From NCBI RefSeq assembly GCF_900089955.1, contig NZ_FLQX01000105.1, positions 1-64,000 on the forward strand: a stretch of DNA of 64,000 bases. The letters are read 5' to 3'. The position numbers and the translations under genes were made by a program. The stretch is from Candidatus Accumulibacter aalborgensis. GTDB taxonomy: Bacteria > Pseudomonadota > Gammaproteobacteria > Burkholderiales > Rhodocyclaceae. Shown in pieces: positions 8,886 to 31,149 of this stretch. Position 1 is the first letter of the stretch; each line of letters begins with the position of its first letter. The notes under the pieces are model-generated. The model saw only the letters and a list, made by a program, of their open reading frames with translations, did no database searches and had not been told where the DNA came from.

Positions 8886-11777
8886 ATGAAACGCATGCTG
8901 TTTAACGCAACACAGGCCGAGGAACTCCGTGTTGCCATTGTCGACGGTCAGAAGCTGATTGACCTGGACATTGAGTCGGCCGCCAAGGAACAGAAAAAGA
9001 GCAACATTTACAAGGCAGTCATTACCCGCATCGAGCCTAGCCTGGAAGCCGCTTTTATCGATTACGGGTCAGAACGACACGGTTTTCTGCCCTTCAAGGA
9101 AGTCTCCCGCGCCTTCTTCCAGCCTGGCGTCGAAGCGAATCGCGCGACGATCAAGGAAGCGCTGCGCGAAGGACAGGAACTGATCGTTCAGGTCGACAAG
9201 GACGAGCGGGGCAACAAGGGTGCCGCGCTGACGACCTTCGTCAGCCTCGCCGGGCGCTACCTGGTCCTGATGCCCAACAACCCGCGCGGCGGCGGCGTCT
9301 CGCGGCGTGTCGAGGGCAGCGAACGCACTGAACTACGCGAAGTCATGGATGCCTTGCCGGTGCCGTCGGGAATGAGCCTGATCGCGCGCACCGCGGCGAT
9401 CGGGCGCAACGGCGAAGAACTGCAATGGGACCTCAACTACCTGTTGCAGTTGTGGAAGGCCATCGAGGGCGCCGCACACGAACAGAAAGGCGCCTTCCTG
9501 ATCTACCAGGAGGGCAGCCTGGTCATCCGTGCGATCCGCGACTACTTTCAACCCGATATCGGTGAAATCCTGATCGACACCGATGAAGTCTTCGACCAGG
9601 CGCAGCAATTCATGGCGCATGTGATGCCGGGGACGGTCAATCGCATCAAACGCTATCGCGACGATGTGCCCTTGTTTTCGCGTTTCCAGATCGAGCATCA
9701 GATCGAGTCCGCCTACTCGCGCCAGGTCAGCCTGCCGTCGGGTGGCGCGATCGTCATTGACCATACCGAAGCGCTGGTATCGGTCGATGTGAACTCGGGT
9801 CGGGCGACGCGTGGCGCAGACATCGAAGAAACAGCCCTGAAAACCAACCTCGAAGCCGCTGAAGAGGTGGCTCGCCAACTGCGCCTGCGCGATCTTGGCG
9901 GCCTGATCATCATCGACTTCATCGACATGGAAAACCTGCGCAATCAGCGCGAAGTCGAAAACCGTGTCCGCGACGCACTGCGCTTCGACCGCGCGCGCGT
10001 GCAGACCGGCAAGATCAGCCGCTTCGGCCTGCTCGAGTTGTCACGCCAGCGCCTGCGTCCGGCGCTCGCTGAAACCAGCTACATCCCCTGCCCTCGCTGT
10101 TCCGGGACGGGTCACATCCGCAGCACCGAATCGGCCGCCCTGCACATCCTGCGCATCCTCGAAGAAGAGGCCATGAAGGACAACACGGCTACCGTCCATG
10201 CCCAGGTGCCGGTCGATGTCGCGACTTTCCTGCTCAACGAAAAGCGCACCGACGTCCAGGCGGTCGAACTGCGGCACAAGGTGACCATCCTTCTGATTCC
10301 CAACATCCACCTCGAAACGCCACAGCACACGATGGTCCGCGTTCGCCACGACGACCTGCTCCAGGACGAGTTGCAACAACCGTCGTACCGCATGGTCGAC
10401 ATGCCGACGAGCGAAGAGAACGCCGAGGCATCGCCCACAGCAGAAGCCAGAGTTCCTCGCCCGGAAGCGGCGATCAAAGGCGTCACCTCGTCGCAACCGG
10501 CGCCGCTGGTCGCCGAAAGGCAAGCGGCGACGGCTGCACAGCCGACCATTGCCCCTAGCCACTTCCTGGCCAGGATCCTGTCCTGGTTCCGCCACAAGCC
10601 GGAACCCGCACCGGTCGCTGAACCCTCGCCGCCGAAACCGGCCAGCAACCCGCCGCGCGAGGCAGCACGCGATACTCGCCGGGGCGCCGGTCGCCCCACT
10701 CGCCGCGACGAGACCCGCGAAGCTCCCGAGGCCCGCGTTTCTCGAGAGCCGAGGGAGACGACAGCGCAACCGGCTGCGGCGCAGACCCGCAACGAAGCTC
10801 AGAGAGTTCGTGAACCGCGCCCCCCGCGCGAGCCGCGTGAACCTCGCGACCCGAACGAGGTACGCGAGCCACGTCGCCAGCGGGCCGAGCCGCGTCCGGA
10901 GCGCAAAGAGCAGACCACGGTAGCGGCAACAGCCAGTCGAACCGACGTTCAGCCAGCCATCGCCCCTGCGGCTATCGCCCCTCCGCTTGACGCCCTCGTC
11001 CTCCCCACGCAGACGCCGACCACCGAGGAGGCAGCAGGCAGCGGCTCACGTCGTCGTGGGCGACGCGGTGGCCGCCGCGAGCGCGGCGAGCGAACCGAGA
11101 ACCCCGCCGAGGTTCAGAACGATGGACTCGTAGCGACCGCCGCCCCTGAAGCAGACGGCCTCGCCACCACGCCGCCCGCGGCAACGACCGGCCAGGCTGC
11201 CGCCGTGACCGCTGTCGCTGCGCCAAGCGCGGAGCAGCCAGACACAGCCATCGCCGAGACTCCGCCGGCCAATGCCGGCGCGACCGAGGCGCCGGCGGAT
11301 CCCGTTGAGGTCCAGGTAGCCACTGTCGCGGCAGTTCCCGCAACGACTGTCGATCAGCGTACAGCCGACGACACGCCACCCAAGGTGCCGGAGGCCGTCG
11401 CCGCAGCGGCAGCCATCAGCGCATCGGCAACGGACCGGGCCGAGGACGAAGCGGCAGCGGTCGTCCAGACGCCAGCCACGGTCGAAGATCCGGTCACAAA
11501 TCCGGTCGCCATCGCGCCCGAGGCGGTCGTCGATCTGCCGGCGCCAGACTCGGCGCCAAGCGCACCGATCGCACCGATCGCACCCGCTGCGTCATCGGCA
11601 CCCGCGCTGACCATCGAGCAGGCTATCGAGGGAAGTGGTCTGGTCATGGTCGAAACGAGCAGCGACGAGGCCAGTGGGTGGCAGCCGGAAGCGGTCGCGG
11701 CACCGCAGCCACGACGCAGACGCGCCGCGGTGGTCGTCGCCGACGAACCGCTGGTGATGGTCGAAACACGAAAGTAG
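8886..11777 (+). CDS. rne: Ribonuclease E
   Basis: This 963-residue endoribonuclease is the core of the RNA degradosome. The start at ATG 8886 ([20 protein letters not shown]) fits the family N-terminus and has GGGAG upstream; an earlier in-frame start is not needed. The S1 domain covers about 35-125. The catalytic DNase I-like region has [11 protein letters not shown] and [13 protein letters not shown], carrying the two metal-binding Asp residues. The zinc-link motif is CPRCSGTG near residue 402. The C-terminal ~450 residues are low-complexity and probably disordered, with an Arg/Pro-rich RNA-binding stretch (about 610-690), Ala/Pro-rich tracts, and a repeated LVMVET motif at the very end. 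Partner-binding sites for degradosome enzymes would be expected there. It is divergent from rluC. Confidence 0.96.
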
Positions 11778-11869
11778 ACCATCCGTCCAATGCGGGCGGG
11801 GGCCGGGGTTCCCTTCTTCTGCAGGGAGTACCTACCGGGGAGATCCGGCCACCGTCCGAGGAGCGCCAC

Positions 11870-12841
11870 ATGATTCACTGCCCAATCCCTTACTGGCTAC
11901 TGGCGGCAGCCCTTGCCGCGCTGCTCGCCGCCTGTGGTCACGATCAGCCCGCGTTTTTCCAGGGCTACGTCGAGGGCGAGTACCTCTACCTGGCTGCACC
12001 GCAAGCAGGTTACCTCAAGTCGCTCGACAGCCCTCGTGGCAGTCGCGTCACCGAAGGTCAAGCGGTTTTCGCCATTTCCAGAGACCCCGATTCGCAAACC
12101 CTGGCCGAAGCCGAAGCTCGCGCGGGGTCGGCCCGCCAGAAGTTGAAGAACCTCAGCGAGCCGCGCCGACTGCCCGAGATCGCTGCCCTCGAGGCCCAGG
12201 TTCGCGCCGCCGACGCCTCCCTGCAACTGGCACAAAGCCAGCTCCGCCAGCAGGAAACGCTGGCTCGGCAACGTTTCGTCTCGCAGGCCAGGCTAGACGA
12301 AGCCACGGCTGCCCGTGACCGCAGTGCAGCCGAACTGGACGCCGCCAGACAACAGTTGGCCAGCTTCCGGATTTCCCTTGGCCGCCAGGCCGAAGTTTCC
12401 GGCGCCGAGGCCGACCTCGAGGCGGCGGCGGCCGTGGCGGCACAGAAGCGCTGGCTGGTGGAGCGCAAGGCGGTCAGCGCTCCCGTTGCAGGCGAGATCG
12501 CCGACACCTACTACCAACCGGGAGAATGGGTGCCGGCAGGTGCACCGGTCGCCAGTTTGCTACCCGACGCTCGCCGCCGCCTGCGTTTCTACGTACCTGC
12601 AGCGCTGATCGCCACGGTTCAGCCAGGCCAGAGCGTCGAAGCGCGCTGCGATGGCTGTGGCGAACCGATCAAGGCGACGATCGACTTCATCGCGCCGCAG
12701 GTCGAATACACGCCGCCGGTGATCTACAGCCGCGGCAGCCGCGAGAAGCTCGTCTTCCGCGTCGAAGCGTCGCCGGCGCCGGCGCAGGCCGCCACCCTGC
12801 GTCCAGGACTGCCGGTCGACGTGCGCCTGGCTGCGAACTGA
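11870..12841 (+). CDS. HlyD-family periplasmic adaptor lipoprotein (YbhG-like)
   Basis: This 323-residue membrane-fusion protein pairs with the ABC exporter encoded next. ATG 11870 has GAGGAG upstream. The N-terminus is a lipoprotein signal with lipobox LAAC (Cys22), so it is probably anchored in the inner membrane. A lipoyl-like half motif (QAGYLKSLDSPRGSRVTEGQ) is followed by a long alpha-hairpin rich in Ala, Gln and Arg (about 80-200). The second lipoyl half is VSAPVAGEIADTYYQPGEWV and then a beta-barrel domain. It is shorter than HlyD and closest in style to YbhG/EmrA-type adaptors. It is separated by one base from the ATPase gene. The substrate is unknown; small toxic compounds are typical for the family. 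Confidence 0.88.
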   Translation: MIHCPIPYWLLAAALAALLAACGHDQPAFFQGYVEGEYLYLAAPQAGYLKSLDSPRGSRVTEGQAVFAISRDPDSQTLAEAEARAGSARQKLKNLSEPRRLPEIAALEAQVRAADASLQLAQSQLRQQETLARQRFVSQARLDEATAARDRSAAELDAARQQLASFRISLGRQAEVSGAEADLEAAAAVAAQKRWLVERKAVSAPVAGEIADTYYQPGEWVPAGAPVASLLPDARRRLRFYVPAALIATVQPGQSVEARCDGCGEPIKATIDFIAPQVEYTPPVIYSRGSREKLVFRVEASPAPAQAATLRPGLPVDVRLAAN

Positions 12842-12842
12842 C

Positions 12843-13772
12843 ATGGACGATGACGCGCTGGCGATCGACGTCGCCGGCATCAACAAGCACTTTGGCGACA
12901 AGCACGTGGTCAAGGATCTGAGCCTGCAGGTCCGCCAGGGTGAGATCTACGGCTTCCTCGGGCCGAACGGCAGCGGCAAGACGACGTCGATCCGCATGCT
13001 CTGCGGCTTGTTGACGCCGGACAGCGGTCGCGGCACCTGCCTCGGGCTCGACGTACTGAAGGAAAGCGCGGCGATCAAGCGTCAGGTCGGCTACATGACC
13101 CAGAAATTCTCCTTGTGGGACGACCTGACGATTGGTGAGAATCTTGATTTCGTGGCGCGCATGTTCGGCATGAGCAATCGCCAACAGGCCGTGCACCAGA
13201 CCCTCGAAGAGCTCGGCCTCGGTGGCCGCAGCCGGCAGTTGGCCGGCACACTTTCCGGCGGCTGGAAGCAGCGTCTCGCACTCGCCTCGTGCCTGCTTCA
13301 TCAGCCCCGCCTGTTGCTCCTCGACGAACCGACCGCCGGCGTCGACCCCAAGGCGCGCCGTGATTTCTGGGAGGAAATCCACCGTCTTTCGGCGGCCGGG
13401 ATCACCGTCCTGGTCTCCACGCACTATATGGACGAGGCCGAACGCTGCCACCGCCTGGCCTACATTGCCTACGGCAGCCTGCTCGCCGCGGGTACCGCCA
13501 GCGAAGTGGTCGCCGGCTGCCAGCTCAATACCTGGGAAATCAGCGGCGACGGCATCCACCGCCTCGCCGAACGTCTGCGCCGCCTGCCAGGCGCCGAGCA
13601 GGTGGCCAGCTTCGGCGCTACGCTGCACGTCAGCGGCCCCGACGGCCCACGGCTGCAGGCCAGCCTGGAAACCCTGCGCGACGAAGCCGGACTGACCATC
13701 AGCGCAGTGGCGCCGTCGCTGGAAGACGCCTTCATCCATCTCATGCAGCACAGCCCGGACCCGTTCGGCTAA
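12843..13772 (+). CDS. ABC exporter ATP-binding subunit (YbhF/CcmA-like)
   Basis: This 309-residue ABC ATPase has Walker A GPNGSGKT (40-47), Q-loop YMTQKFSLWDDLT, signature LSGGWKQ (137-143) and Walker B LLLLDEP with TAGVDPKARR following. The H-loop is VSTHYMDEAERC. The LSGGWKQ signature with Trp is characteristic of the YbhF/YhiH and drug-exporter group. A C-terminal extension of about 70 residues precedes a conserved ISAVAPSLEDAFIHLM tail. Only a single ATPase domain is present; some relatives are tandem. It acts with the HlyD-like lipoprotein and the ABC-2 permease on either side. Confidence 0.93.
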   Translation: MDDDALAIDVAGINKHFGDKHVVKDLSLQVRQGEIYGFLGPNGSGKTTSIRMLCGLLTPDSGRGTCLGLDVLKESAAIKRQVGYMTQKFSLWDDLTIGENLDFVARMFGMSNRQQAVHQTLEELGLGGRSRQLAGTLSGGWKQRLALASCLLHQPRLLLLDEPTAGVDPKARRDFWEEIHRLSAAGITVLVSTHYMDEAERCHRLAYIAYGSLLAAGTASEVVAGCQLNTWEISGDGIHRLAERLRRLPGAEQVASFGATLHVSGPDGPRLQASLETLRDEAGLTISAVAPSLEDAFIHLMQHSPDPFG

Positions 13773-13776
13773 AATC

Positions 13777-14898
13777 ATGCGCGGCTTCTCGTTCTCCCGC
13801 TGGTTCGGCATCCTGCTCAAGGAGTTCATCCAGTTGAGGCGCGACCGGCTGACCTTCGGCATGATCGTCGGCATTCCAATCATGCAGTTGCTGCTCTTCG
13901 GTTTCGCCATCAACTCCGACCCGAAACACCTGCCCACCGCGGTCGTCATGGCCGACCCCGGACCGTTCGCGCGCGCCTACGTCGCCGCGATGGCGAACAG
14001 CGACTATTTTCAGATCGCCGGCCAGGTCGACGAGCAGCAGGCGAGCAAACTCCTCGACCGTGGCGAAGTCCAGTTCGTGGTCACCTTCCCGCCGGGTTTT
14101 CACCGCGATCTGCTGCGCGGCAGGAGCCCGACGCTGGTGGTCGAAGCCGATGCCACCGACCCGATGGCCACCGGCGGCGCCATCTCGGTGCTCAATCACC
14201 TCGGACTGGAGGTCTTCGCGCCTGATTTGCCCGGCCTGCAGCGCCCTCCGACGCCGCCCATGGAACTGCGTATCCATCGCCGCTACAACCCCGAAGGCAT
14301 CACTGCCTACAATGTCGTCCCCGGTCTGCTCGGCGTCATTCTGACCATGACCATGGTCCTGATGACCGGCCTGGCGATGACCCGCGAGCGCGAGCGCGGC
14401 ACCTTCGAGAACCTCCTGGCGACACCCGCGACGCCGCTCGAGGTGATGACCGGCAAGATCGTTCCTTATATCCTGATCGGTCTGGTCCAGGTAACCCTGA
14501 TCCTGCTGGCTGCCCGCTGGCTGTTCGACGTGCCGATGCACGGCAGCCTGCTCCTGTTGTACACCGTCGTGCTGTTGTTCATTTGTGCCAACCTGACGCT
14601 CGGCATCACTTTCAGCTCGATCGCCCAGAACCAGTTGCAGGCGATGCAGATGACCTTCTTCTTCTTCCTGCCGTCGATGTTGCTCTCCGGTTTCATGTTC
14701 CCGTTCCGCGGCATGCCCGAATGGGCGCAGGTAGTCGGTAACATTCTACCGCTCACCCATTTCCTGCTCCTCGTGCGGGGAATCCTGCTCAAGGGCAACG
14801 GCATCGACATGCTTTGGCAACAGGTCTGGCCAATCCTCGCCTTCATCGCCGTGGTCCTCGCCATCGGCCTCAAGACCTTCCGCAAGACGCTGGATTGA
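13777..14898 (+). CDS. ABC-2 type transporter permease (YbhR/YbhS-like)
   Basis: This 373-residue permease has an N-terminal helix (MIVGIPIMQLLLFGFAINSD), a large extracytoplasmic domain (about 50-170), and five C-terminal helices. The conserved TRERERGTFENLLATP motif marks the ABC2_membrane_3 family. The start is four bases after the ATPase stop. E. coli-type systems often carry two permeases; only one is seen here, so it probably homodimerises. The C-terminus (IGLKTFRKTLD) is intact. The stop TGA at 14896-14898 is in the same frame as the downstream sensor, which begins without its own N-terminal region. Confidence 0.92.
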   Translation: MRGFSFSRWFGILLKEFIQLRRDRLTFGMIVGIPIMQLLLFGFAINSDPKHLPTAVVMADPGPFARAYVAAMANSDYFQIAGQVDEQQASKLLDRGEVQFVVTFPPGFHRDLLRGRSPTLVVEADATDPMATGGAISVLNHLGLEVFAPDLPGLQRPPTPPMELRIHRRYNPEGITAYNVVPGLLGVILTMTMVLMTGLAMTRERERGTFENLLATPATPLEVMTGKIVPYILIGLVQVTLILLAARWLFDVPMHGSLLLLYTVVLLFICANLTLGITFSSIAQNQLQAMQMTFFFFLPSMLLSGFMFPFRGMPEWAQVVGNILPLTHFLLLVRGILLKGNGIDMLWQQVWPILAFIAVVLAIGLKTFRKTLD

Positions 14899-14916
14899 CC
14901 GCAGTGGCTTGCTGCG

Positions 14917-17900
14917 TTGATAGCCACCGGCGACGGCCTGGTGCGCTTCGACGGCTACCGCTTCCGCCCGCAGGAAAGAGAAAGTCCGGACCCTGCGGCG
15001 CGCAACCTGGGCTGGATCCGATCTTTGCTGGCGGGGCGCGATGGCCGCCTGTGGATAGGCACCGAATGGGATGGCCTGGCGGTCTACGACCCGGCGAGCG
15101 AACGGGTCGTTTTCTACCGCAGCGACAGCGACCAGACCGGCGGCGAAAAATCGGCCACCAGCGGCGCGCTGCCAACGATTCGCGCACTGGCCGAGGATAG
15201 CGGCGGCGAAATATGGGTCGGCAGTGAGGGCGGCGGGCTGGATCTCTTCGACCCCAAGAGCGGCAGCTTTTCCCACCACCGGCATTCGAGCCAGCTCGGC
15301 AGCCTGCCCGACGATCGGGTGCAAGCGCTGCTGGTCGACCGCCAGGGCGCACTGTGGGTCGGCACCTGGGCGGGCTTGAGCCGTCGCCGCCTGGGCAGCA
15401 AGCACTTCGAACCGATCTTCGCGCACCAAGGCGCCGGAAGGGGCGCCGGACTGGCCGGTCACATCGTACAAGCTCTGTTCGAGGCGTCGGATGGGCGCAT
15501 CTGGGTGGGCACGCAGCAAGGCGACCTGGCGATCATCGACCCGACGACGACCAAGGGTCTGCTGCTCGATCCGGTCTCAGGCGTGGTCAGCCAGCTCGCG
15601 GTGTCCAGTCTGGTCGAGTCGCCAGCCGGACAGATCTGGGTCGGCCGAGCCTCGGGAATCGATCTGTATGACGTACGCAGCGGCCACCTGGTGCGGCGAC
15701 TGACACACGATCTGCGCAAGCGTGCCGGTCTGGCGGGCAATGAGGTGACCGCGCTGATCCGCGATCACGCCGGCCTCATCTGGGTGGGTGGCTTTGGCGT
15801 CGGTCTGCAGCGCCACGATCCGAGCAATCGCAGCATCTGGCTGCGCGGCGCCGACCCGCAGCCGGATAGCCCCTTCGCCGAAGCCGACGTGCGCAGCCTG
15901 CTGCAACTCGACAATGGCGAAATCTGGGCCGCTACCGAAAACGGTGGCGTGGCGGTGATGGACCGACAGTTGCGCGTCACCGGCGCTGTGCGGCCCCGGC
16001 CGCCGGTGCAAGCCCAGTCGGCTGCTCGGACACCTGGGCAAGCCCAGCCGCCGGCGCGCATTGAGGCGATGGCGCAGGCCAGCGATGGTACCGTCTGGCT
16101 GGGCGCCGATGCCCAGATCTATCAGTTCACCCGAAGCCACCGGCAACTCCGAATCCTGCCGCATGGCGGCGGCCTGACGCGACGTTTGCTGGCCAGCAGC
16201 GATGGCTCGTTGTGGGTGGCCACCCAGGATGGAGTCTTTCGCTTGCGGCCCGGCACAGGCGAAGTCGTTCGCCTCGGTCAACGGGGTGGGCAGCCACTGC
16301 GCGCTGATATCAACGCCCTCGCCGAGGCGCCAGACGGTAGCGTCTGGGTGGGCAGCGGCAAGGGGCTCTTTCGCGTCGCTGCCGGTGACAGCCAACTGCA
16401 AGCGGTGACCACGCAGGCAGGCGCCGGGCTCGGTAGCCCCAGTATCATCGGACTTCTCTTCGACCACCGACAGACCCTGTGGGTGGACATCGCAGTGACC
16501 GGCCTGCATCGCATGATCGGCTGGGATGGCCAGCAGGCGACCTTCGACCGGGTCAGCGAACGCCACGGCATCGTCAGGCGGCCATTCGGTGGCAATTTGC
16601 TGGAGGACCGGCGCGGCCGAATCTGGACGCAGATGTACGTCTACGACCCGGCGACCGACCGCCTGGACGAGCTGACGGCAGCCGATGGTGCGGATCTCGG
16701 CATCGGCTGGTTTCTATCGCGCGCCAAGACAGCGGATGGCCGGCTCCTGTTCGGTGGCAGCAATGGCATTCTGGTGGTCAGGCCGGAACAGTTCGACGCC
16801 TCGGCCTACCAGCCGCCAGTGGTGATCTCGGAATTGCAGATCAACGGCCAGCGCCAATCGGCCGGACAGATCGCTGACGGACTGGAGATGCTGCCCGAGC
16901 AGCGCAGCTTCAGCCTGGCCTTGACCGCCTTCGACTACAGTGACCCCGCCCGCGTGCACTATGCCTACCACTTGCAAGGTTTTGACCCCGACTGGATCAA
17001 CACGACGGCCGACTCTCGCACCGCCAGCTACAGCAATCTGGGCCCCGACGACTATGTCCTGCGCGCGCGTGCAACCAACCGCAGCGGTCTCTGGAGCCCG
17101 CACGAACTGGCGGTCAAGGTACGCATACTGCCCGCCTGGTGGGAGACCTGGTGGTTCCGCCTGGCAGTGCTCTCACTGCTGGCGGCGATGGTGTACGCAG
17201 TGGTGTGCTGGCGCACCCGCCATCTGCGTTTGCGCCAGATAGCACTCGAACGTACGGTGCACGAGCGCACGGCCGATCTGGAAAAGCTCACCCTGGCGCT
17301 ACAGCAAGAGTCGGCCGCACTGGCGGAGGCCAGCCTGACCGACGCGTTGACCGGCTTGCGCAACCGCCGCTTCGTGGCGCAACACATCGACGCCGATGTG
17401 GCTCTGGCGGTGCGCGCGTACGAGAGTCACCTGCAGTACGGGGCAAGTTTGCGCGACGATGCCGATTTGATATTCTTCCTCTTTGACATCGATCATTTCA
17501 AGCAGGTGAACGATGGCCATGGGCATGCTGCCGGTGACGCGGTGATCAGGGAGATGTGCGCTCGACTGGTCGAGGTGTTTCGCGACAGCGATTACCTGGT
17601 TCGCTGGGGTGGTGAAGAATTCCTCGTCGTGGCGCGCGGGACAGCGCGCACTCATGCCGCCGAACTAGCCGAGCGGGCGCGGGCCGCTGTGGCGGATCAG
17701 CCCTTCGCGCTTGACGATGGCAGTTTGTTGTCCAGGACCTGCTCGATCGGTTTTTGCTGTTTCCCGCTGTCAACCCGGCATGCGGGCGCTCTGCGCTGGG
17801 ATGCCGTGGTCAATATTGCCGATGGCGCACTTTACGCGGTCAAGAACGCCGGCCGCAATGGCTGGCTGGGAGCGCTCAGCGCGAACAGCGAATCAGCCGA

Positions 17901-18000
17901 GGCCTTGCTCGCCTGGTCGCGCCGACCCTTCCTTGACTGGGCGCGCACCGGTGATTTGAACGTGGTCGGGTCGCCAGATCGCGACGCGGCCTGGCTGTAG
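14917..18000 (+). CDS. Two-component-regulator-propeller / Y_Y_Y diguanylate cyclase, 5'-truncated
   Basis: The open frame has 1027 residues. Repeated blade motifs (WIGTEWDGLAVYDP, WVGTQQGDLAIID, WVGSGKGLFRV) form one or two periplasmic-type beta-propellers over about 1-650. A Y_Y_Y domain follows (about 665-735), one transmembrane helix (about 745-766), a short coil and a GGDEF domain with GGEEF near 898. An RDSD product-inhibition site lies five residues before it. The cyclase therefore looks active, making cyclic di-GMP in response to an extracytoplasmic ligand. The first residues (IATGDGLVRFDGYRF) are the middle of a first blade, normally preceded by a signal peptide and about 50-80 residues. 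Only TTG 14917 is available, and the upstream frame hits the permease stop. The gene appears to have lost its 5' end. Confidence 0.85.
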   Translation: MIATGDGLVRFDGYRFRPQERESPDPAARNLGWIRSLLAGRDGRLWIGTEWDGLAVYDPASERVVFYRSDSDQTGGEKSATSGALPTIRALAEDSGGEIWVGSEGGGLDLFDPKSGSFSHHRHSSQLGSLPDDRVQALLVDRQGALWVGTWAGLSRRRLGSKHFEPIFAHQGAGRGAGLAGHIVQALFEASDGRIWVGTQQGDLAIIDPTTTKGLLLDPVSGVVSQLAVSSLVESPAGQIWVGRASGIDLYDVRSGHLVRRLTHDLRKRAGLAGNEVTALIRDHAGLIWVGGFGVGLQRHDPSNRSIWLRGADPQPDSPFAEADVRSLLQLDNGEIWAATENGGVAVMDRQLRVTGAVRPRPPVQAQSAARTPGQAQPPARIEAMAQASDGTVWLGADAQIYQFTRSHRQLRILPHGGGLTRRLLASSDGSLWVATQDGVFRLRPGTGEVVRLGQRGGQPLRADINALAEAPDGSVWVGSGKGLFRVAAGDSQLQAVTTQAGAGLGSPSIIGLLFDHRQTLWVDIAVTGLHRMIGWDGQQATFDRVSERHGIVRRPFGGNLLEDRRGRIWTQMYVYDPATDRLDELTAADGADLGIGWFLSRAKTADGRLLFGGSNGILVVRPEQFDASAYQPPVVISELQINGQRQSAGQIADGLEMLPEQRSFSLALTAFDYSDPARVHYAYHLQGFDPDWINTTADSRTASYSNLGPDDYVLRARATNRSGLWSPHELAVKVRILPAWWETWWFRLAVLSLLAAMVYAVVCWRTRHLRLRQIALERTVHERTADLEKLTLALQQESAALAEASLTDALTGLRNRRFVAQHIDADVALAVRAYESHLQYGASLRDDADLIFFLFDIDHFKQVNDGHGHAAGDAVIREMCARLVEVFRDSDYLVRWGGEEFLVVARGTARTHAAELAERARAAVADQPFALDDGSLLSRTCSIGFCCFPLSTRHAGALRWDAVVNIADGALYAVKNAGRNGWLGALSANSESAEALLAWSRRPFLDWARTGDLNVVGSPDRDAAWL

Positions 18001-18064
18001 TTCCTGTCCCCATGGAGCAAAGGTGAGCTGATCGCGACCAGCAGGCGATCGGCCAGCGGGAAGG

Positions 18065-18129
18065 AGTAGAATCGCCGCACTTCCTGCTCGGCGCGCGCGC
18101 CTGCCTCGATGCCTCAATCCAGTTATCTC
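18065..18129 (+). repeat. 65-bp repeat, copy A (5' end of TauE-like gene)
   Basis: The stretch from AGTAGAAT through the first seven codons of the TauE-like gene is repeated at 31061-31125. I count 56 identities in 65 aligned bases without gaps. The last 21 bases, from the ATG on, are identical. It covers the leader and start of a functional gene here. Confidence 0.85.
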
Positions 18130-18780
18130 GCCCTCTTGCTGATCGGCCTGCTCGGCGGCACGCACTGCGTCGTCATGTGCGGCGGGATCGTCGGCGCCTT
18201 GTCGATGGGCACGCCAGCGTCCTTCACGCTTCATCTGGCCTACAACCTGGGGCGGATGGTCAGCTATGCCACGGCTGGCGCAATCGCCGGCGCTGTCGGC
18301 GAGGCAAGCGTCGCCCTTTCCGGGCAGTTACCGCTGCGCGCCTTTCTTTATCTGCTCGCCAACCTGATGCTCATCGCGCTGGGCCTCTATCTGATGGGCG
18401 TCACCCGGGCGCTGGCGTTCAGCGAGCGTTTCGGCCAGAAACTGTGGCGCCATCTACAACCGCTGAGCCGGCCTTACCTGCCCGCACGGCGCGTCGCGCA
18501 GGCTTTCCCTCTCGGTCTGCTCTGGGGCTGGTTGCCCTGCGGCCTGGTCTACAGTGCGCTGGCGACCGCTCTGACCAGCGGCTCGGCCTTGAACGGCGCC
18601 GGACTGATGCTCGCCTTCGGCGCCGGCACCTTGCCCAATCTGCTCCTTGCCGGTCTGCTCGCCGCCCGCCTGCAGACCTATGCCCGCCTGCCGGCGGTGC
18701 GCATCGCGTCGGGACTGCTCGTTCTCGGTTTTGGCGTCTGGGGATTGATCGGGCTCATTCGCCTGGTTCTTCGGACCTAG
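18109..18780 (+). CDS. Sulfite exporter TauE/SafE-like (UreH/DsbD_2-type) membrane protein
   Basis: This 223-residue protein has about six transmembrane helices. The N-terminus has GGTHCVVMCGGIVGALS, with two conserved Cys and a His, which are potential metal or redox ligands. LGLLWGWLPCGLVYSALATA sits in the middle, again with a helix-embedded PCG. This is the urease-accessory-like/DsbD_2 transmembrane family, often encoded beside cbb3 oxidase assembly genes and copper P-type ATPases, where copper or heme-protein maturation is suspected. Here it stands alone between two cyclic-di-GMP genes. Its 5' end is duplicated upstream of the copper ATPase at 31150. A TAGAAT just upstream could be a -10 element; no clear -35 was found. 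Confidence 0.85.
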   Translation: MPQSSYLALLLIGLLGGTHCVVMCGGIVGALSMGTPASFTLHLAYNLGRMVSYATAGAIAGAVGEASVALSGQLPLRAFLYLLANLMLIALGLYLMGVTRALAFSERFGQKLWRHLQPLSRPYLPARRVAQAFPLGLLWGWLPCGLVYSALATALTSGSALNGAGLMLAFGAGTLPNLLLAGLLAARLQTYARLPAVRIASGLLVLGFGVWGLIGLIRLVLRT

Positions 18781-18864
18781 CAAAGGATAGGGAATCCGAC
18801 GGCACCTTTCAAGGAATACGAGATCTCATCATCGCCGTCCACCTCAAAGTTGGCCAGCCCCTTC

Positions 18865-21800
18865 CTACTGCCGGCTTTCCAGCAGCGCCTGCAACTGTTC
18901 AATCAAGGCGTCCCGCAAGGAATCGAGTTCACACAGCCTCGCCAGGGCCTCCAGGTTGCGGCCCATGCTCCTGAGTTCACACAAATCGCCGGCCAGCGCA
19001 TGCACCTGCCGGTGCAGGGATAGCATGCCCTGGAAGGCGCAATGCTGACCATAGCGCGTCTGACCCTCGGCATCCAGCCAGGCGCCGAAGCGACAAAGAT
19101 AATGATCCAGAGGCATGGGGTTTACACGCTTGCCCTTGAGGTAGCGGGCAATGCTGACGATCCAGGCTCGGTGCTCGGCGCCGGCAAAGAGCAAGGGCAA
19201 ATCGTCGCGGTTGATGGCAGACCGGTTGCTCCAGGCACAATCAGGACGCCAGGCGCTAGCCCAACCCTGGATATCGAGTGCCGGCATGGGTCGGGCAATG
19301 CCGTAGCCTTGAGCCAGTTCGCAACCAAGCTGCAGCAGCATTTTGCCGTGCTCCACGGTCTCCACCCCTTCGGCGATGACCTGGCGGCGAAACGCTACGG
19401 CCAGGCCCAGCACGCCGGCGAGAATGGCCAGGTCATCGGGGTTGTCGAGCATGTCGCGCACGAAGCTCTGGTCAATTTTGAGCAGTTTCACCGGCAGGTG
19501 TTTCAGGTAAGTCAGCGAGGAATAACCGGTGCCGAAATCATCCAGGGCAAACATCACGCCGATTTCCCGACAAGCCTCGATGATCCCGGATACGCGGGCC
19601 AGGTCGACCAGCGCACTCGTTTCCAGCACCTCCAGTTCGAGGTCGCCCGGACTGACATCCGGGTGTGCCGCCAGAATCGCACGCAGGCGTTTGACGAAGT
19701 TCGGCTGCTGCAACTGGCGGGCGCCCACATTGACGCTGACCGGAATATCCAGCCCAGCCTCGCGCCAGCGTTCGATCTGGGTCAGAGCGGTATCGATCAC
19801 CCACTCGCCAACGTCGACTGCCAGTGCATGATCCTCGATCACCGGCAGGAAAACCGCCGGCAGCAGCAGACCTTTTTCCGGGTGTTGCCAGCGGATCAGC
19901 GCCTCGACGCCAATCACCCTACCCGTACGCATGTTCACCTTGGGTTGGTAATAGAGCACGAATTCGCGCTCGCTCAGAGCGCGGCGAATGTGGTCAAGGC
20001 TTTCGTGTCGACCACGGACGCTATGGTCCTGCTCGGCGTCAAAGACGTGGTAACAGTTCTTCCCGGCCAGCTTGGCCTGATACATGGCAAAGTCGGCCTG
20101 GCGCAGCAATAGATCCGCATCCACTTCTCCCATCTGCGGGTAGAACGTGATTCCGAGACTGGCCGAAACCTGGAGCACGTGGTCGTCGACCAGCACCGGC
20201 TCGGCGGCGGCCTGAAGCAGGCGGGCCAGCAGCCGCGTACTGGTCTCGACAACGGCCAGGTCGAGCAGCACAGCCACGAACTCGTCGCCGCCCAGGCGGG
20301 CCAGCGTGTCGCCTTCGCGCAGCGATTGCTTCATGCGGCTGGCCAGAGTGATCAGCAACTGGTCGCCGGCATCATGCCCGTGGCGGTCGTTGATCGCCTT
20401 GAAACCGTCCAGGTCAATATAGGCTACCGCCAGGGGTTGTCGGCGCCGCTGCGCCTGGGCCATGGCCTGTTGCAAGCGGTCGGCGAGCAGCGTACGGTTG
20501 GGTAGCGTGGTCAGCCCGTCGTAATGGACCAGATGTTCGAGCTGCAGTGCGTGCTCTTTCAGCGCGGTGATATCGGAGAACAAGGCCACGTATTGCTGGG
20601 TCTTGCCCCGGCTATCGCGCACGGCACTAATGGTGAGCATCTCGGCATACACTTCGCCATTCTTGCGCCGGTTCCAGATTTCACCGTTCCAGTGGCCTGT
20701 CTCGGTCAGATCGCGCCACAGCAATGCGTAGAAAGCTTTTTCCTGACGGCCGGAGCTCAGGATGCGCGTGTTCTGACCCAGGACTTCCTCACGGCTGAAA
20801 CCGGTGATAGCGGAAAATGTGTCGTTGACGTCGATGATCGTGCCGTCGGTGGCGGTAATCATGATGCCTTCGCGAGCATGGGTAAAGACGCTGGCGGCAA
20901 GCTGGAGTTTTTCCTGGGCCCGCTTGCGCTCGGTGATGTCCCTTGAAAATCCGACGGTGCCGGTAACCCGTCCATCGACAGTAATCGGTGACTTATAGGT
21001 TTCGAACCACACCCATTGGCCATCGACTTCGATATGTTCCTCAACACTTCTTGCCCGGCCGCTTTCAAGGACCATTCGATCATCCGCTCGATAAGCTTCC
21101 GCCAACTCCTGCGGCCAGACATCAAGATCGGTCTTGCCAACCAGAAGGTTGGCCGACGCCTGGCCGCACGCTTCAGCAAACGCCTGGTTGACGGCGAGGA
21201 ACCGGCTGTCTCTATCCTTGAGCCAGACAAGGAACGGAAAATTGTCGAACAGCGCGCGCTGATAGCGTTCGCGTTCGTAAAGCGCCATCTCGGCCCGCTT
21301 GCGCTCGGAAACGTCACTAAAAATCCATATGCTGCCCTCCTGTGGTCGAGAGGGATCGATTGCCCGACCGCTCAGGGCGCCCCAGAAGAGACTGCCATCC
21401 TTGTGTCGCAGTCTCGTTTCTGCAGTGAAGTTCTTTCTTTCTGCCACTGTTGCATAGGCCTCCACCCCGACCTGTTCGAAGGTCTCGCGGGAATCGTAGA
21501 GGCGCAAGGAGGATTCGCCCAACAGTTCGCCCGGCAGATATTGAAAAATTTCCTCAAAGCGGCGATTGCAGGAAACGATACGCCGTTGTTTGAGATAGAC
21601 AATTCCGACCAGCACGTTATTCAGAATCGTTTCGTTTTCTGCCATAATCCGGCGGTTCTTCTCCTCCTGTTCCTTGCGCTCGGTGATGTCGATGTAGTAA
21701 CCCGCCACAAGTTTCCTGTCGCCCTGGATCAGCGGGAACCGGATGGATGTAAAACTGCGTCCATTGAAATGCTCTTCGGCTCCCAACGGCTTGCCAGTTG

Positions 21801-23301
21801 AAACCACGCTCAAGTCGGCTGCATCCATTTTGTCGGCGAATTCAGCCGGAAATAGTTCTCTCATGGTCTTGCCGATTATTTCGGAGTCGGCAATTCCAAC
21901 CATATCCCTGAAGTTGTCGCTGACCATCAGCACATGGCTTCCGGCAGGCTTGATTTCGTTTATAAAGACATGGACCGGAGAGTGAAGCAGGAACTGGGAG
22001 AACATCCGGTTGGTCTCAGACAGTGCATTAACTGCACATTGCCTGGCAGCTTCGCCCCGTCGCCTGCGGGCAATGTTCCAAAACAACGAGATGATCAAGA
22101 TCAGTTGCGCCGTGAAGAGCGCCGCACCGAACCACAGGTAGTATTTATAGCGCGAGTAGAAGGTATCCGGCCGGCCCGTCACGATTGATCCGACAGGCAG
22201 CAGCGATTCGCTGATCCCGAATCTATCGAGCCCCGCATAGTCAAATATATAGCCTGTCGGACTTTCGACGACAGGTAGCGAGTCTGCCTTTTCACCGCGC
22301 AGAATCCTGCCGGTGAGGACGGCCGCGCTTTCCCCCTGCAAACGTCCGCTCAAGAGCTTTCCGCCGATCGCTCCGGGCGCCATATAAAAATCCCAAACGG
22401 TATAAACCGGCCGAGGTGAGGCGCTGACGATGAAATCCATGCTCTCCCGTGCTGAAAAATTCCGACCCGCCGAATCGCGAAAAAAAGCGAGTGCAAGAAC
22501 GACCGTGTCGTCACTCAACTGTTTCAGGCTGTCGCTCAACTGGAGCGCTGTCAGATCATTCAATTCAATAAAGGCAATAGCCGGGAAATTGTGGGCAACA
22601 TCCCGCGCCAGACCCAGATTTATCTGACCCGTCTCCGTCGAATCGGTAATCAGAGCAATCTTGCTCGTTCCCGGATGCAGCCTGAGAGCAATGTTGATGG
22701 TCGAAACGATATCAAGATCTTCCCGGACGCCGGTGTAGTTGCTGCCGGGATAGAATTGGTAGCTGAGAAAGTTATTTATGCCGCAGAACACTACCGGCAC
22801 GCCGGGAAAAAGAGTATCTCGATACTGGAGCAAGAAATCGAGGGCATTGTTGTCTGAAGCGACGATGGCGTCGAGTTTGACGTTTTCATAGAGCTGCCGG
22901 TAGATCTTCACCAAGTGCGGGAACATGACCTCGGCAGCTTGTCGTTTGGTATTCATATACTCGACATACACTTCCGTTCCCGGGAGCTGTTCCAACAGGG
23001 TACGGGAGAACCCGTCCTGAATCATGTCGGTCCAGAGGTAGCCCTGATGGTAGGAGTGAAGGACCAGGACCTTTTGCGGGCTTGTCGCGTCAGCACTAAC
23101 TGATGTGCTGAAAATGGCCAAGCAAAGCAAGGCGACCACCGGCAGCGATCGATCAAGCAATGCCTTGAGAGCAGGTCGCCACACTTTTCTATCCGACCCG
23201 GCAACGGCGATTACAACGGCATTGGTCATGAGATGCATCCAGGTACAAGCCGCACGATAGGATGCGCAAAGAGCGAACGGGGAACAGTCTATTGCCCACA
23301 C
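18865..23301 (-). CDS. ABC-sub-bind / PAS / GGDEF-EAL protein with C-terminal CZB domain
   Basis: This very large (1478-residue) cyclic-di-GMP signalling protein has a signal peptide or first helix (about 46-68) and a periplasmic ABC-type substrate-binding-like domain (VLVLHSYHQGYLWTD, about 75-370). A transmembrane helix lies near 395-417, followed by four PAS domains (about 440-930). GGDEF is near residue 1002, with RLGGDEF and a REGD inhibition site. EAL is near 1132, with retained EALIRW, DDFGTG, KIDQSF, AEGVET and QGYGIARPM. The C-terminal ~75 residues (DHYLCRFGAWLDAEG, LHRQVH) match a zinc-binding CZB domain. Both catalytic domains appear intact. The extreme GTG start at 23301 is doubtful; ATG 23238 or 23229 would give a cleaner signal sequence. 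It faces the TauE-like gene. Confidence 0.88.
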   Translation of the reverse strand: MWAIDCSPFALCASYRAACTWMHLMTNAVVIAVAGSDRKVWRPALKALLDRSLPVVALLCLAIFSTSVSADATSPQKVLVLHSYHQGYLWTDMIQDGFSRTLLEQLPGTEVYVEYMNTKRQAAEVMFPHLVKIYRQLYENVKLDAIVASDNNALDFLLQYRDTLFPGVPVVFCGINNFLSYQFYPGSNYTGVREDLDIVSTINIALRLHPGTSKIALITDSTETGQINLGLARDVAHNFPAIAFIELNDLTALQLSDSLKQLSDDTVVLALAFFRDSAGRNFSARESMDFIVSASPRPVYTVWDFYMAPGAIGGKLLSGRLQGESAAVLTGRILRGEKADSLPVVESPTGYIFDYAGLDRFGISESLLPVGSIVTGRPDTFYSRYKYYLWFGAALFTAQLILIISLFWNIARRRRGEAARQCAVNALSETNRMFSQFLLHSPVHVFINEIKPAGSHVLMVSDNFRDMVGIADSEIIGKTMRELFPAEFADKMDAADLSVVSTGKPLGAEEHFNGRSFTSIRFPLIQGDRKLVAGYYIDITERKEQEEKNRRIMAENETILNNVLVGIVYLKQRRIVSCNRRFEEIFQYLPGELLGESSLRLYDSRETFEQVGVEAYATVAERKNFTAETRLRHKDGSLFWGALSGRAIDPSRPQEGSIWIFSDVSERKRAEMALYERERYQRALFDNFPFLVWLKDRDSRFLAVNQAFAEACGQASANLLVGKTDLDVWPQELAEAYRADDRMVLESGRARSVEEHIEVDGQWVWFETYKSPITVDGRVTGTVGFSRDITERKRAQEKLQLAASVFTHAREGIMITATDGTIIDVNDTFSAITGFSREEVLGQNTRILSSGRQEKAFYALLWRDLTETGHWNGEIWNRRKNGEVYAEMLTISAVRDSRGKTQQYVALFSDITALKEHALQLEHLVHYDGLTTLPNRTLLADRLQQAMAQAQRRRQPLAVAYIDLDGFKAINDRHGHDAGDQLLITLASRMKQSLREGDTLARLGGDEFVAVLLDLAVVETSTRLLARLLQAAAEPVLVDDHVLQVSASLGITFYPQMGEVDADLLLRQADFAMYQAKLAGKNCYHVFDAEQDHSVRGRHESLDHIRRALSEREFVLYYQPKVNMRTGRVIGVEALIRWQHPEKGLLLPAVFLPVIEDHALAVDVGEWVIDTALTQIERWREAGLDIPVSVNVGARQLQQPNFVKRLRAILAAHPDVSPGDLELEVLETSALVDLARVSGIIEACREIGVMFALDDFGTGYSSLTYLKHLPVKLLKIDQSFVRDMLDNPDDLAILAGVLGLAVAFRRQVIAEGVETVEHGKMLLQLGCELAQGYGIARPMPALDIQGWASAWRPDCAWSNRSAINRDDLPLLFAGAEHRAWIVSIARYLKGKRVNPMPLDHYLCRFGAWLDAEGQTRYGQHCAFQGMLSLHRQVHALAGDLCELRSMGRNLEALARLCELDSLRDALIEQLQALLESRQ

Positions 23302-23547: not shown

Positions 23548-25845
23548 TCAGCGCACGCTGATCTCGACGCGGTCGTAGCGTCCAGCGTCGTCCATGACCG
23601 TGATCTGGTAGCGTCCGGCGTCGCGGAACTTGTGCGCCAGCGCGCGACCGGCCGGCACGCGGCCGATCTGGCGGCCATCGAGCAACCAGATGAGTTCCTC
23701 CTGCCCGCCGCGCGCTTCGAGGCGCAGTTCCGGCGGCAGGCCGTTGCCGGCGCGGCGTATCGTTTCGCCGTCGCTGACGCCGACGATCTTCAGGCCGGCT
23801 TCGGGAGCGTGTGCGCCGGCGCAGGCGGGTGCCCACGCGGGCGGCAGTGCGCGCTCGCGAAGCGCGCCGTCGAGCCACGGTTCGAGCGCCGCCGGCCAGC
23901 GGGCCATGGCGACGGAATGTACTTCACCGCTGGCGCAAGCGGCACGCACGCGCAGGCCGCTGGCCGCATCGCGCTGGTCGGTATAGCGCGCAGCGCCGCC
24001 GCGCAGGCGGTCGGGGAAAGTCGGCGGCGCCGTGCCGTTGACCATCCAGGCGGTTCTTTCCTGATGGCACAGTTCGGGCGGCGTCGCTTCGCGGCGCGTG
24101 CCTAGTGGCCAGCAGATCTTCGTCGTCGATACGCTGGCCGGCGGTGTGCGGGGCTGCGGTGGCGAATCGTCTACGACCGAAAAGATATCGACCAGCAAGG
24201 GCGCGGCGATGTTGGCGCCGAAAAAGCCGGGGTTCGGCGTTCCATCCGGGCGTCCAACCCACACGCCGACGGCGAAGTGGTCGCTGACACCGACCGCCCA
24301 GGCATCACGAAAGCCAAAGCTGGTTCCCGTTTTCCAGGCGATGCCACGACGCGTTCCGACGCCGCCGTCGACCTGGCGAGCGACCGGTCCGCCCGACTCG
24401 AGTACATCGCGAATGATGAAAGCAGCGCCTTCGCTGAGCATGCGTGCTTCTTCGAGCGGCGCGTCGGAACGATACCGCGGCCGGCCGCTGACGCCGCCGC
24501 GCGCCAGCGCCGTGTACGCGCCGACCAGGCCTTCGAGGGTGACCGCCGCGCCGCCGAGGATGACGCTGAGGTTGGGCGTGGCACCGCGCGGCAACTCGAG
24601 CTTCAGTCCGCCGCGGCGCAGCGCCGAGACGAAGCGCTGCGGCCCGAGCTGTTCGAGGACTTCGACCGCCGGCACATTGAGCGATCGTTGCAGCGCTTCG
24701 CTGGCCCCGACCGGGCCGCTGAAATTGGCCTGAAAGTTGCCGGGCTGGTAACCCGAGAACGATTGTGGCACGTCGGCGAGCAGCGATTCGGAGTGAATCA
24801 GGCCTTCGTCGAGCGCCAGCCCGTAGAGAAAGGGCTTCAGTGCCGACCCCGGCGAGCGCGCAGCCTGCACCATGTCCACGTGCGCGAAGCGCGCCTCATC
24901 GGCGAAGTCTGCCGAACCGGCGTAGGCACGGACTTCGAGGGTGGCGTTGTCGACCACCAGCGCGGCCATCGAGACGCGTGCCGGCAGGACGGTCAGTCGT
25001 GCCGAGAGCAGTTGCTCGACGCTTTGCTGAACGCTCGCGTCGAGGGTGCTCTCGATGCGCGCCGCTCGTGGCTGCAGCCGCCGCAGACGTTCGGCGAACA
25101 AAGGTGCGAGCAGCGGCTCGCGTACGGTCTGCGCAATCACCGGTTCCTGGCGTGCATCGGCAATTCTCGCTGCCCCCCAGCGCGATTGCATGCGGGCGAG
25201 TACCTTGTCACGCGCCATGCGCGCTCGCTCCGGGTAGCGGTCGGGCCTCAGCAGTGACGGCGCCTGCGGCAGAACGGTGAGCAGCGCCGCTTCCGAGTCG
25301 CTCAGCCGTTGCGCGGGTTTGCCGAGGTAGGCGCGGCTGGCCGCCTCGACGCCCTCGAGGACGCCCCCCATCGGCGCAAAGGTCAGGTAGATCTCGATGA
25401 TTTCGCGCTTCGAACAGCGCAGTTCGAGCTGTACGGCGCGGGCCATCTGGCGCAGCTTGCCGGCAAGTGTGTGTGGCGTCGGTTCGAGCAGGCGGGCGAC
25501 CTGCATGGTCAAGGTCGATCCGCCGGAGACCACTCGCCCATGCCTCGCCCATTGCCCGGCGGCGCGCAGCAGGGCCCAGGGATTGACGCCGGGGTGCCAC
25601 CAGAAAGCGCGGTCCTCGTAGGCGATCAGCGCTTCGATATAGCGCGGCGAGACTTCCTCGATGCGCACCGGGTGGCGCCAGATGTGCGCCCGATCGGGGA
25701 AGGCGCGCAGCGGCGTGCCATCGCGCGCGACGACCAGTTGCGCGCGTGGCGCCGACCGCCCCGGCAGGGGCGGCGGAAAGATCTGGTCAGCGAGCAGCAG
25801 CAGGGCGAGTGCTGCGGCCAGCGTCAGCCGCAGCGCCTGCTTCAT
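23548..25845 (-). CDS. pbpC: Penicillin-binding protein 1C
   Basis: This 765-residue bifunctional class A PBP has an N-terminal membrane anchor (about 5-20). The glycosyltransferase-51 domain has AYEDRAFWWHPGVNPWALLR and GGSTLTMQVARLL. The transpeptidase domain has the SxxK motif in ARSPGSALKPF and the KTGTS box. A C-terminal BiPBP_C domain spans the last ~90 residues. It polymerises and cross-links peptidoglycan in the periplasm. The longer open frame reaching 26502 is rejected because ATG 25845 gives the family N-terminus and overlaps the alpha-2-macroglobulin stop by four bases (ATGA). Linkage of pbpC with that gene is widespread and suggests a shared cell-envelope defence role. Confidence 0.94.
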   Translation of the reverse strand: MKQALRLTLAAALALLLLADQIFPPPLPGRSAPRAQLVVARDGTPLRAFPDRAHIWRHPVRIEEVSPRYIEALIAYEDRAFWWHPGVNPWALLRAAGQWARHGRVVSGGSTLTMQVARLLEPTPHTLAGKLRQMARAVQLELRCSKREIIEIYLTFAPMGGVLEGVEAASRAYLGKPAQRLSDSEAALLTVLPQAPSLLRPDRYPERARMARDKVLARMQSRWGAARIADARQEPVIAQTVREPLLAPLFAERLRRLQPRAARIESTLDASVQQSVEQLLSARLTVLPARVSMAALVVDNATLEVRAYAGSADFADEARFAHVDMVQAARSPGSALKPFLYGLALDEGLIHSESLLADVPQSFSGYQPGNFQANFSGPVGASEALQRSLNVPAVEVLEQLGPQRFVSALRRGGLKLELPRGATPNLSVILGGAAVTLEGLVGAYTALARGGVSGRPRYRSDAPLEEARMLSEGAAFIIRDVLESGGPVARQVDGGVGTRRGIAWKTGTSFGFRDAWAVGVSDHFAVGVWVGRPDGTPNPGFFGANIAAPLLVDIFSVVDDSPPQPRTPPASVSTTKICWPLGTRREATPPELCHQERTAWMVNGTAPPTFPDRLRGGAARYTDQRDAASGLRVRAACASGEVHSVAMARWPAALEPWLDGALRERALPPAWAPACAGAHAPEAGLKIVGVSDGETIRRAGNGLPPELRLEARGGQEELIWLLDGRQIGRVPAGRALAHKFRDAGRYQITVMDDAGRYDRVEISVR

Positions 25846-28800
25846 TTCTTCGCGCCGGCGTCTTCGTCCTTGCTGCCGTCGCTGATCAGCAGCATCTCGT
25901 CGCCACCGGCGAGACCGTAGATCTGCGGCTGATACATGTCTTCGGCGTAGGTCGGCGGGACGACGAAGCGACCCGGCGTGACGACACGGACGCGGTAGAA
26001 GAACTGCATCTGCCGGGCGAGCCTGGCGGCGACGACGAAGCGGTCGTCGCGGAACTCGACGTGCCGGATGTCGCTGTTCTGCATGACCTGCCGTGGATCG
26101 ACACCGCCGACGGTGATCACTGACTGCTCGCCCTGGACGATGTTGACGTTCTCGATCTCGAGACCGGCCGGGATGTAGTCGACGATCAATCCGTTGGCGT
26201 ACCGGCCGGCGGTCTTCACCTGCAGGCGGACAATCGCCGTTTCGCCGACGCGCAGCGCGCGATTGCCGAGCGGCTGGCCATCGGCGGTGAACCAGTCGCG
26301 CTTCAGATCGAAAACATCGCGTCGCGCCGCGGGCATCCTGACCGGGTTGCCGGTAAAGCTGAGTTCGACGAACAGCCGATCCTTGTACGTGTTGCGAATC
26401 TTGATACCGGCCGCGACTTCGCTGGCCGACAGGGGTCGGAACTGCGCTCCCCGGCCGCCGATCGGCTGCGGCTTGTCGGCCGAAACGATCTCGGCCGCCC
26501 ATTCTCCGCCCGCGTCGGTGACAAAACTGCGCCCGAGCAGGAACAGCGCGAGCTTCTCCTGCGTGCTGTAGTAGCGCCTGTTTTCCATTTCACCCGCGAC
26601 CTGGCTGACCAGGTTCTCGCGCCCTGGCGGCTTGAGCTGGTACTTGTCGAGCAGGACGTAGATCATCGCCCAGTCGCGCAGATTGCTGCCGTAGTCGCCC
26701 CACCAGGCCTGGCCGGGACCGCCGCGCGGCTTGACCATGCCGGCGGCGATGGCGCTCTCTGCACGCGCCTCGTCGCCCATCAGCTTGAGCGCCAGACCGA
26801 GCTGCACCAGCGCCAGCCCCGAGTGTGCGGCGGCCTGTGACTCGTGCAACTGGCGCAGCGTCGCCAGCGGCGCCTTGCCCTGGCGAGCGAGCACGTAGGC
26901 GCCGTAGGCGAGCACGGCGAAGCGGCCTGATCCGGCATAGCGGTTGTCGTTCCAGACCGCATTCTGGTTGTAGGCGACGGGTCCTGTCGGCAGGCCGGCG
27001 ACGCCTTCCTGCAGACCCTTGAGCAGGAAGTCGAGCGCGCGTTTGTCGACCTCCGGCGGCACGTTGAAACCCTGTTCGCGGGCATCAAGCAGGAAGTTGG
27101 CGACGTAGGCCGATAGCCAGTACTGGTACTCGGAGAGATTGCCCCACAGGCTGAAGCCGCCGTTGGCCGCCTGCATGCCGGCAACTCGCGCGATCGCCTT
27201 GTCGACCAGCTCGGCGCGCTGTGCTTTGGTGAACGGCTTGAGCCCGAACTGCCTGGCCGCCGCTTCGTCGATGAAGAGCTGGGGATAGGCGCTGCTGATG
27301 GTCTGCTCGGCACAGCCATAGGGATAAGCGAGCAGCCCCTGTACGGCGCTACGCACGTCGATCGGCGCCTTGTCCGAGACGACCAGCGTCGCGGCGACGG
27401 TTTCGCGCAGGAAGCCAGCGAGTTCCGCATCGCGCACTTCGACCGTTTCTCCGGGGGCGACGACCAGGCGCTTGACGACCGATTGCCGTGGCGTCGGCGC
27501 CTGCACCTGCAGCGCGAAGCTGCGCTTGATCTTGATCAGCGGGCTGTCGACGCGCACCTGCACTTCGCTCAGGCCGATCGCCGTGCCAGCCTCGATCGGA
27601 ATGCGCAGGATGCGTTTCTGCTGCGCCTTGAGCGAAAACGGCTGCTCGACTCGCTTGATGCGCAGGCCGTCGCCGTTGCTGATCGCCACTTTGATCTCCT
27701 GCTCCTTGGCGGAGAGGTTATGGACGTCGAGGGCGAGCACGGCGCTGTCGCCGACCGAGAGGAAACGTGGCGTCGCCAGTTCAACGACCAGCGGCGCCGC
27801 GACGGTGACTTCGGCCTCCTGCATGCCGAAGCGATCGCTGCTGGCGACCACCGCCATCAGGCGCAGGCTGCCGTTGAAATCGGGCACCGGCAGCGAGATT
27901 TCGGCCTCACCCTGGTCATCGAGAGCCACCGGGCCGCTGAACAGATCGACCAGGCGAACCTTTTTCGGGACGCTGCGCGTCGGTTTCGGCGCGGCGTCGC
28001 CACCGAACTTGAGTTTGCCTTTCTGGCCGTCCATCTTCTCGATCAGCCGGCCGTAGATGTCGTAGGCGTCAGCGCCGTAACGCAGCTTGGCAAAGAAGAA
28101 AGCGAAGGGATCGGGACTGGCAAAGCGCGTCACGTTGAGGATCCCGACATCGACCGCCGACAGCGTCACCATCGCTTTCTGCCCTCTGGCCTCGGGGACC
28201 CTGATCCTCACCTTCAGCGGCTGCTCGGGCTCCATCTTCTGCGGCGCTTCAAGGGCCACGTCGAGTTTGCGTTTGGCACGATCGAGCGGCACGTGCAGCA
28301 AACCCAGCGCGCGTGCCGGCGTCACTTTCTCGCCGCGGTTACCGGGGCGCAGGACCATCACCGAGACGTAGAGATCGTGGCGCTGCCATTCCTTGTCGAG
28401 CGGAATGTCGATCGTCGTTCCGTCGGCACCGATCGCCAGGCGGCGCACCCATAGCGCGCGATCGCCTTCGACGGTCACCAGCGCCTCGCCGGCATGGGGC
28501 GGACTGATCGTCAGGCGCACGGTGTCGCCATCGGCATAGGCCGGCTTGTCGAACTTGAGCGCCACGCGGTCAGGGCGTACGCCCTGCGTTTCATCGTCCT
28601 TTGCCGACCAGCCGGCGTAGAAGCGGAAGCGCATCGTTTGCCGGCTTTCGGGGTCGAGGATTTCGACGCGATAGCGCCCGTACTTGACCGGCAAACTCAA
28701 CTTGCCGCGCCCGCCGGCGGGCACCGACACCTGCGTCGTGCTCACCAGTTCGTCGGTCTCGGTGAAACCCGAGTTCCAGCCGCGCTGATCATCGAAGCGC

Positions 28801-30980: not shown

Positions 30981-31060
30981 GCAATCCTCCCGGGGAAAAT
31001 GCTGAAGAATAGGAAATCCAGCGGCACCATCGAGAGTATATGGGCTAATGAATCCCATGA

Positions 31061-31125: not shown

Positions 31126-31149
31126 ACCCGCTCTTGCCGACCTAGCGCG

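Follow-up and report, generated by a model that had tools for sequence, protein, structure and literature searches.

A split tauE-copA locus with a putative tauE deletion remnant ahead of copA in Candidatus Accumulibacter

The splitting of operons by duplication and complementary loss is a general idea. As far as the texts were accessible, the literature on operon gene order and duplication consisted of general papers only, and our literature search returned no paper with both COG2836 and cbb3. The locus described here follows the idea in that each half retains a leader copy while its partner gene is gone. It departs from it in that the loss beside copA appears incomplete, with a head and a tail of tauE left in place, and in that an inserted block adds to the separation. 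The closest system for comparison is the hemN-tauE-copA-selD neighbourhood of Candidatus Accumulibacter and other Rhodocyclales, which matches the window (the whole stretch of 64,000 nucleotides analysed) in its orthologous genes, their orientation and their spacing. Unlike this usual neighbourhood, the window has tauE and copA 12.3 kb apart, and copA is fused in frame to a putative tauE remnant.

The comparison set comprised 27 other genomes of the genus of the window, Candidatus Accumulibacter. In 26 of them copA comes next after tauE, with both genes on one strand; hemN lies directly upstream of tauE in 24, and selD is found further downstream in 25. In genome G023, selD is the gene right after tauE, and a different contig carries the closest homologue of copA (64-66%); the absence of copA between tauE and selD at this locus (L116) was taken as an independent gene loss. 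Another gene occupies the place of hemN in G004 and G027, the contig of G001 ends before hemN, and no selD is present on the contig in G001 and G015. In a wider search of 80 named loci, two of which end at a contig edge, copA adjoins tauE in 35 and hemN is upstream in 46. Since this order recurs in the relatives and in the 80-locus set, the tauE-copA pair is old and spread over Rhodocyclales. The arrangement that the earlier note had asked for as a check, a TauE-like gene directly before copA, is thus the one seen in 26/27 relatives and 35/80 wider loci. In the spacing of tauE and copA at their junction, the window resembles G011, G004, G006, G022, G024 and G027. The features of the locus, in window coordinates, are as follows.

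18020-18064, plus strand: putative hemN-tauE spacer remnant, in which some bases resemble the last 12 of hemN (AAGGTGAGCTGA) (local alignment)
18065-18108, plus strand: intact tauE leader; the conserved TAGAAT box occupies 18067-18072 (sequence comparison)
18109-18780, plus strand: intact tauE-like gene, 223 aa (Pfam PF13386 DsbD_2, E 1.5e-55, whole profile covered)
18785-18806, plus strand: repeat R, first block border, 4 bases past the tauE stop (repeat search)
18865-23301, minus strand: PAS-GGDEF-EAL gene of the block (Pfam)
23548-25845, minus strand: pbpC-like gene of the block (Pfam Transgly, Transpeptidase, BiPBP_C)
25842-30980, minus strand: bacterial alpha-2-macroglobulin (A2M) gene of the block (Pfam; other location in relatives)
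31007-31043, plus strand: repeat R, second block border, oriented like the first and lying between the start of A2M and the putative tauE remnant (repeat search)
31061-31104, plus strand: second copy of the tauE leader, with the TAGAAT box kept at 31063-31068 (sequence comparison)
31105-31125, plus strand: putative remnant head, the tauE start codon and first seven codons in the copA frame (21/21 identical to 18109-18129)
31138-31146, plus strand: putative remnant tail, the last tauE bases CGACCTAGC, with the stop out of frame (homology to the G011 tauE-copA junction)
31150-33369, plus strand: copA, a copper-type P1B ATPase, from its native start; frame open back to 31105 (TIGR01511; Pfam HMA and E1-E2_ATPase)
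33708-34814, plus strand: selD, the native right-hand neighbour of copA (locus comparison)

The product of 18109-18780 is a 223-aa membrane protein that scored 188.7 bits against PF13386 (DsbD_2; curated cut-off 24.9) and covered positions 2-199 of the 199 in the profile; "TauE-like" is the word of the earlier note and of common annotation for this product. Its orthologues in the 27 relatives were 70-85% over most of the protein. The copA product reached 577.5 bits with NCBIfam TIGR01511, above the cut-off of 397, and was below the cut-off of the CopA equivalog model NF007952 (628 of 1316). The copA of the window has one HMA domain, as do the copA genes directly after tauE in G004, G006, G011, G022, G024 and G027. 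Among the copA loci of the genus (L092-L118), those of most other relatives have about 300 extra bases, encoding a further HMA-like domain.

The earlier note had described a 65-bp repeat shared by the TauE-like gene and the copper ATPase leader, identical from the ATG on for 21 bases, and this was recovered exactly. Positions 18065-18129 and 31061-31125 are equal, ungapped, at 56 of 65 bases, made up of 35/44 in the leader part and 21/21 from the ATG on, and the alignment stretches to 72 nt at 85%. The runner-up among ungapped 65-mers of the window, on either strand, had 33/65. When an 88-base query was searched against the whole genome (4,707,069 bases, 181 contigs), two places only were found, the second with E = 1.9e-17. 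All nine differences between the copies fall within the 44 leader bases and none within the 21 coding bases, for which the probability by chance is about 2% by hand calculation. Such confinement to the leader hints at possible selection on the start region.

The end-like stretch that the same note had seen ahead of the ATPase ATG is also present. The bases CGACCTAGC stand three bases ahead of the copA ATG at 31150, and the stop of the intact tauE shows GGACCTAGC. In G011, the end of tauE (CTCTCGACCTAG) is followed by two bases and then by the copA ATG; in the window, the bases ahead of the ATG read CTCTTGCCGACCTAGCGCG-ATG, and the two junctions are homologous. The tail is only about 9 bases long, and its assignment rests on this junction homology and not on length. 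A tauE head with its leader, a tail beside copA and an intact tauE in 26/27 relatives were all found, as a deletion remnant of tauE would lead one to expect. The copA leader is, on this comparison, evidently a tauE gene whose middle is gone, with the leader, the ATG, seven codons and the last bases left. Because tauE of G011 has 672 bases including the stop and about 40 are left in the remnant, about 0.63 kb would have been lost; the join can be placed only to within some 15 bases. The ORF from 31105 encodes 754 aa, consisting of the copA frame and a 15-codon extension, and the frame of the head passes the old tauE stop, which is out of frame, into copA (MPQSSYLTRSCRPSA-MPETPRTVELAIEGM). The internal deletion of an ancestral TauE-like gene beside copA, as proposed earlier, is therefore supported by both the G011 junction homology and the gene order of the relatives.

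A second possibility is that copA received a copy of a small piece, the tauE promoter with the first codons, at a place where no tauE had ever been deleted. The copied stretch is exactly the leader plus the start, and a leader copy alone would explain the 65-bp match. However, tauE is directly upstream of copA in 26/27 relatives, and the sequence separating the remnant head from copA agrees with G011 in both tauE end and spacing. This alternative is largely refuted by the conserved tauE tail, and we consider it improbable. Relatives with the same copA leader and no trace of tauE, which would have spoken against the deletion, were not seen: in a leader search of the 28 genus genomes, a second, tauE-less leader place was absent from the other 27 and occurred only in the genome of the window. 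Second leader pieces in G006 and G009 were the same leader split by an insertion, and the other second leader matches in the genus were weak (E 1.6e-4 or worse).

In protein trees, tauE and copA both had their nearest relative in G011, so both genes are native. The selD tree placed G025 nearest and the hemN tree G014, and neither put G011 alone beside the genome of the window; these genes do not fix the species tree. The copA leader aligned to the genome's own tauE leader with a score of 93, compared with 59 for the best of the tauE leaders of 26 relatives. The third codon is CAA in both window copies, and GAA in G011 and most others. Because the two leaders are closest to each other and have this codon in common, a duplication of the leader and tauE inside this lineage is favoured by the comparison. 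The duplication would not be recent, since a leader difference of 14% is about the between-species level.

The stretch 18020-18064 was aligned locally with the hemN-tauE spacer of nine relatives. It beat all 500 shuffles for G010, G021 and G025, and was weak or not significant in the other six. As the left flank still matches this spacer, the intact tauE, 13 kb from copA, would not have come from elsewhere and, judged by its flank, makes up the second half of this split locus instead of being an unrelated copy. A tauE scored here as "not next to copA" would still be half of the same locus. The leader difference, being at a between-species level, could also be accounted for if the second tauE had been acquired by transfer from a different Accumulibacter, after which the native gene beside copA, now redundant, was lost. 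This is very unlikely given that G011 is nearest for both genes, that the two leaders are closer mutually than to those of any other genome, and that the intact copy has native spacer on its left. The left breakpoint was approached through the propeller-GGDEF gene at 14917-18000; its 11 orthologue loci, with 1.5-kb flanks, held no other protein of the window and no sbcD or sbcC. The hemN gene of the genome is on contig C139, beside a gene that by eye resembles sbcD.

The block between tauE and copA is 12.2 kb long and carries the EAL gene, pbpC and A2M, all on the minus strand. Since the outer flanks are ancestral (the spacer on the left, copA and selD on the right), the block between the copies would be an insertion. 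A2M and pbpC were paired, and away from tauE, in all 11 of the relatives' A2M loci examined, out of 19 same-genus genomes with any A2M match (own genome included). In the relatives, neither the tauE locus nor the surroundings of pbpC held a full-length orthologue of the PAS-GGDEF-EAL gene. By eye, A2M of these 11 relatives is preceded by a CTAGAAT box. In the window (30980-31043), again by eye, A2M is without this box, and the similarity stops just before the ribosome-binding region, where repeat R is found instead.

With up to two mismatches allowed, the core of R, GATAGGAAATCCAACGGCACC, matches the genome at 15 sites (the two borders and 13 others), and R is present in 19/28 genus genomes. 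Some copies have up to about 130 bases in common. The matching stretch is short at the borders, some 22-40 bases, and each border copy is distinct both from the other and from the copies elsewhere. R was considered as the end of an insertion sequence, as paired sites in L133 and L134 face each other; read by eye, the ORF lists at four R loci held nothing that resembled a transposase. Because the ORFs between or beside the facing sites looked unlike transposases, we call R a dispersed intergenic repeat. It was not detected in the retrieved A2M loci of 11 relatives or in 27 retrieved tauE or copA loci. An assembly error joining two places at R, to which the number of R matches, its position at both borders and the 181 contigs of the genome might point, is hardly credible given the short border match, the distinctness of the border copies, and a tauE remnant that lies outside R and would exist regardless.

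The sequence shows the two copies, the ancestral order kept by the relatives, outer flanks that are native, and an R at each border; from these we infer an order of events. We hold it very probable that the promoter-tauE stretch was duplicated, that the 12.2-kb block was inserted between the copies, and that the tauE on the copA side has lost its middle. The ancestral locus would have read hemN - promoter - tauE - copA - selD. Duplication of the promoter-tauE stretch in the lineage of this genome would have been followed by the entry of the block (EAL gene, pbpC, A2M) between the copies, with R at both borders. The left copy would have kept the whole tauE and lost copA. The right copy would have kept copA and lost about 0.63 kb of tauE, of which only the leader, the first seven codons and the final bases are left. 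Homologous recombination of R between the tauE copies with R at the A2M locus is our inferred route of entry, and is a guess, since R was not detected in the A2M, tauE and copA loci retrieved from the relatives. The kept leader, with its TAGAAT box and in-frame tauE start codon, would drive the transcription and perhaps the translation of copA, and hemN would since have parted from tauE. The event is of a known kind, in which a gene pair is split and a deletion remnant stays behind, and is unusually clear. It offers a readable snapshot of a conserved bacterial gene pair separating by duplication, insertion of a repeat-bordered block and partial loss of one copy, and it is an ordinary rearrangement trace that settles no general question.

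The leader contains a GTAGAAT box (GTAAAAT in G024) in 20/20 aligned relatives and in both window copies, some 20-45 bases ahead of the tauE ATG. The alignment omitted six relatives with a different sequence before tauE, and also G001, which has no tauE start. Four of these six (G003, G006, G007, G009) retain the box further upstream, and G004 and G027 have no box within 330 bases before tauE. In G006, G007, G003 and G009 (L092, L101, L102, L103), insertions of roughly 100 bases lie between the TAGAAT/TAAAAT box and the tauE start codon and end in a common ...cgcgactttc... motif. The TAGAAT box looks like a -10 box. A consensus scan for sigma-70-type promoters with both hexamers at standard spacing gave none in either leader, and no known RNA was detected at Rfam gathering scores in 10000-40000.

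It is likely that the inherited tauE leader serves the transcription of copA, and the tauE start codon, being in frame, may act as its translation start. That the remnant is in use in both respects, with the tauE promoter driving copA and the tauE start codon opening its translation to give a 15-residue N-terminal extension, is a tentative suggestion that we regard as somewhat doubtful. If true, the deletion made two neighbouring genes a fusion using the start of the first, and the extension of CopA, with the N-terminus MPQSSYLTRSCRPSA, would stem from the two ends of a membrane-protein gene unrelated to copA. For annotation, the first 15 codons of the copA frame in the window should be regarded with caution as apparently inherited from tauE.

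To the left of the locus, the region 11678-18000 carries ABC ATPase and ABC-2 permease genes (Pfam) adjoining the large propeller-GGDEF regulator gene. Ahead of the ABC ATPase and permease genes is an apparent secretion-type membrane fusion protein, identified by eye.
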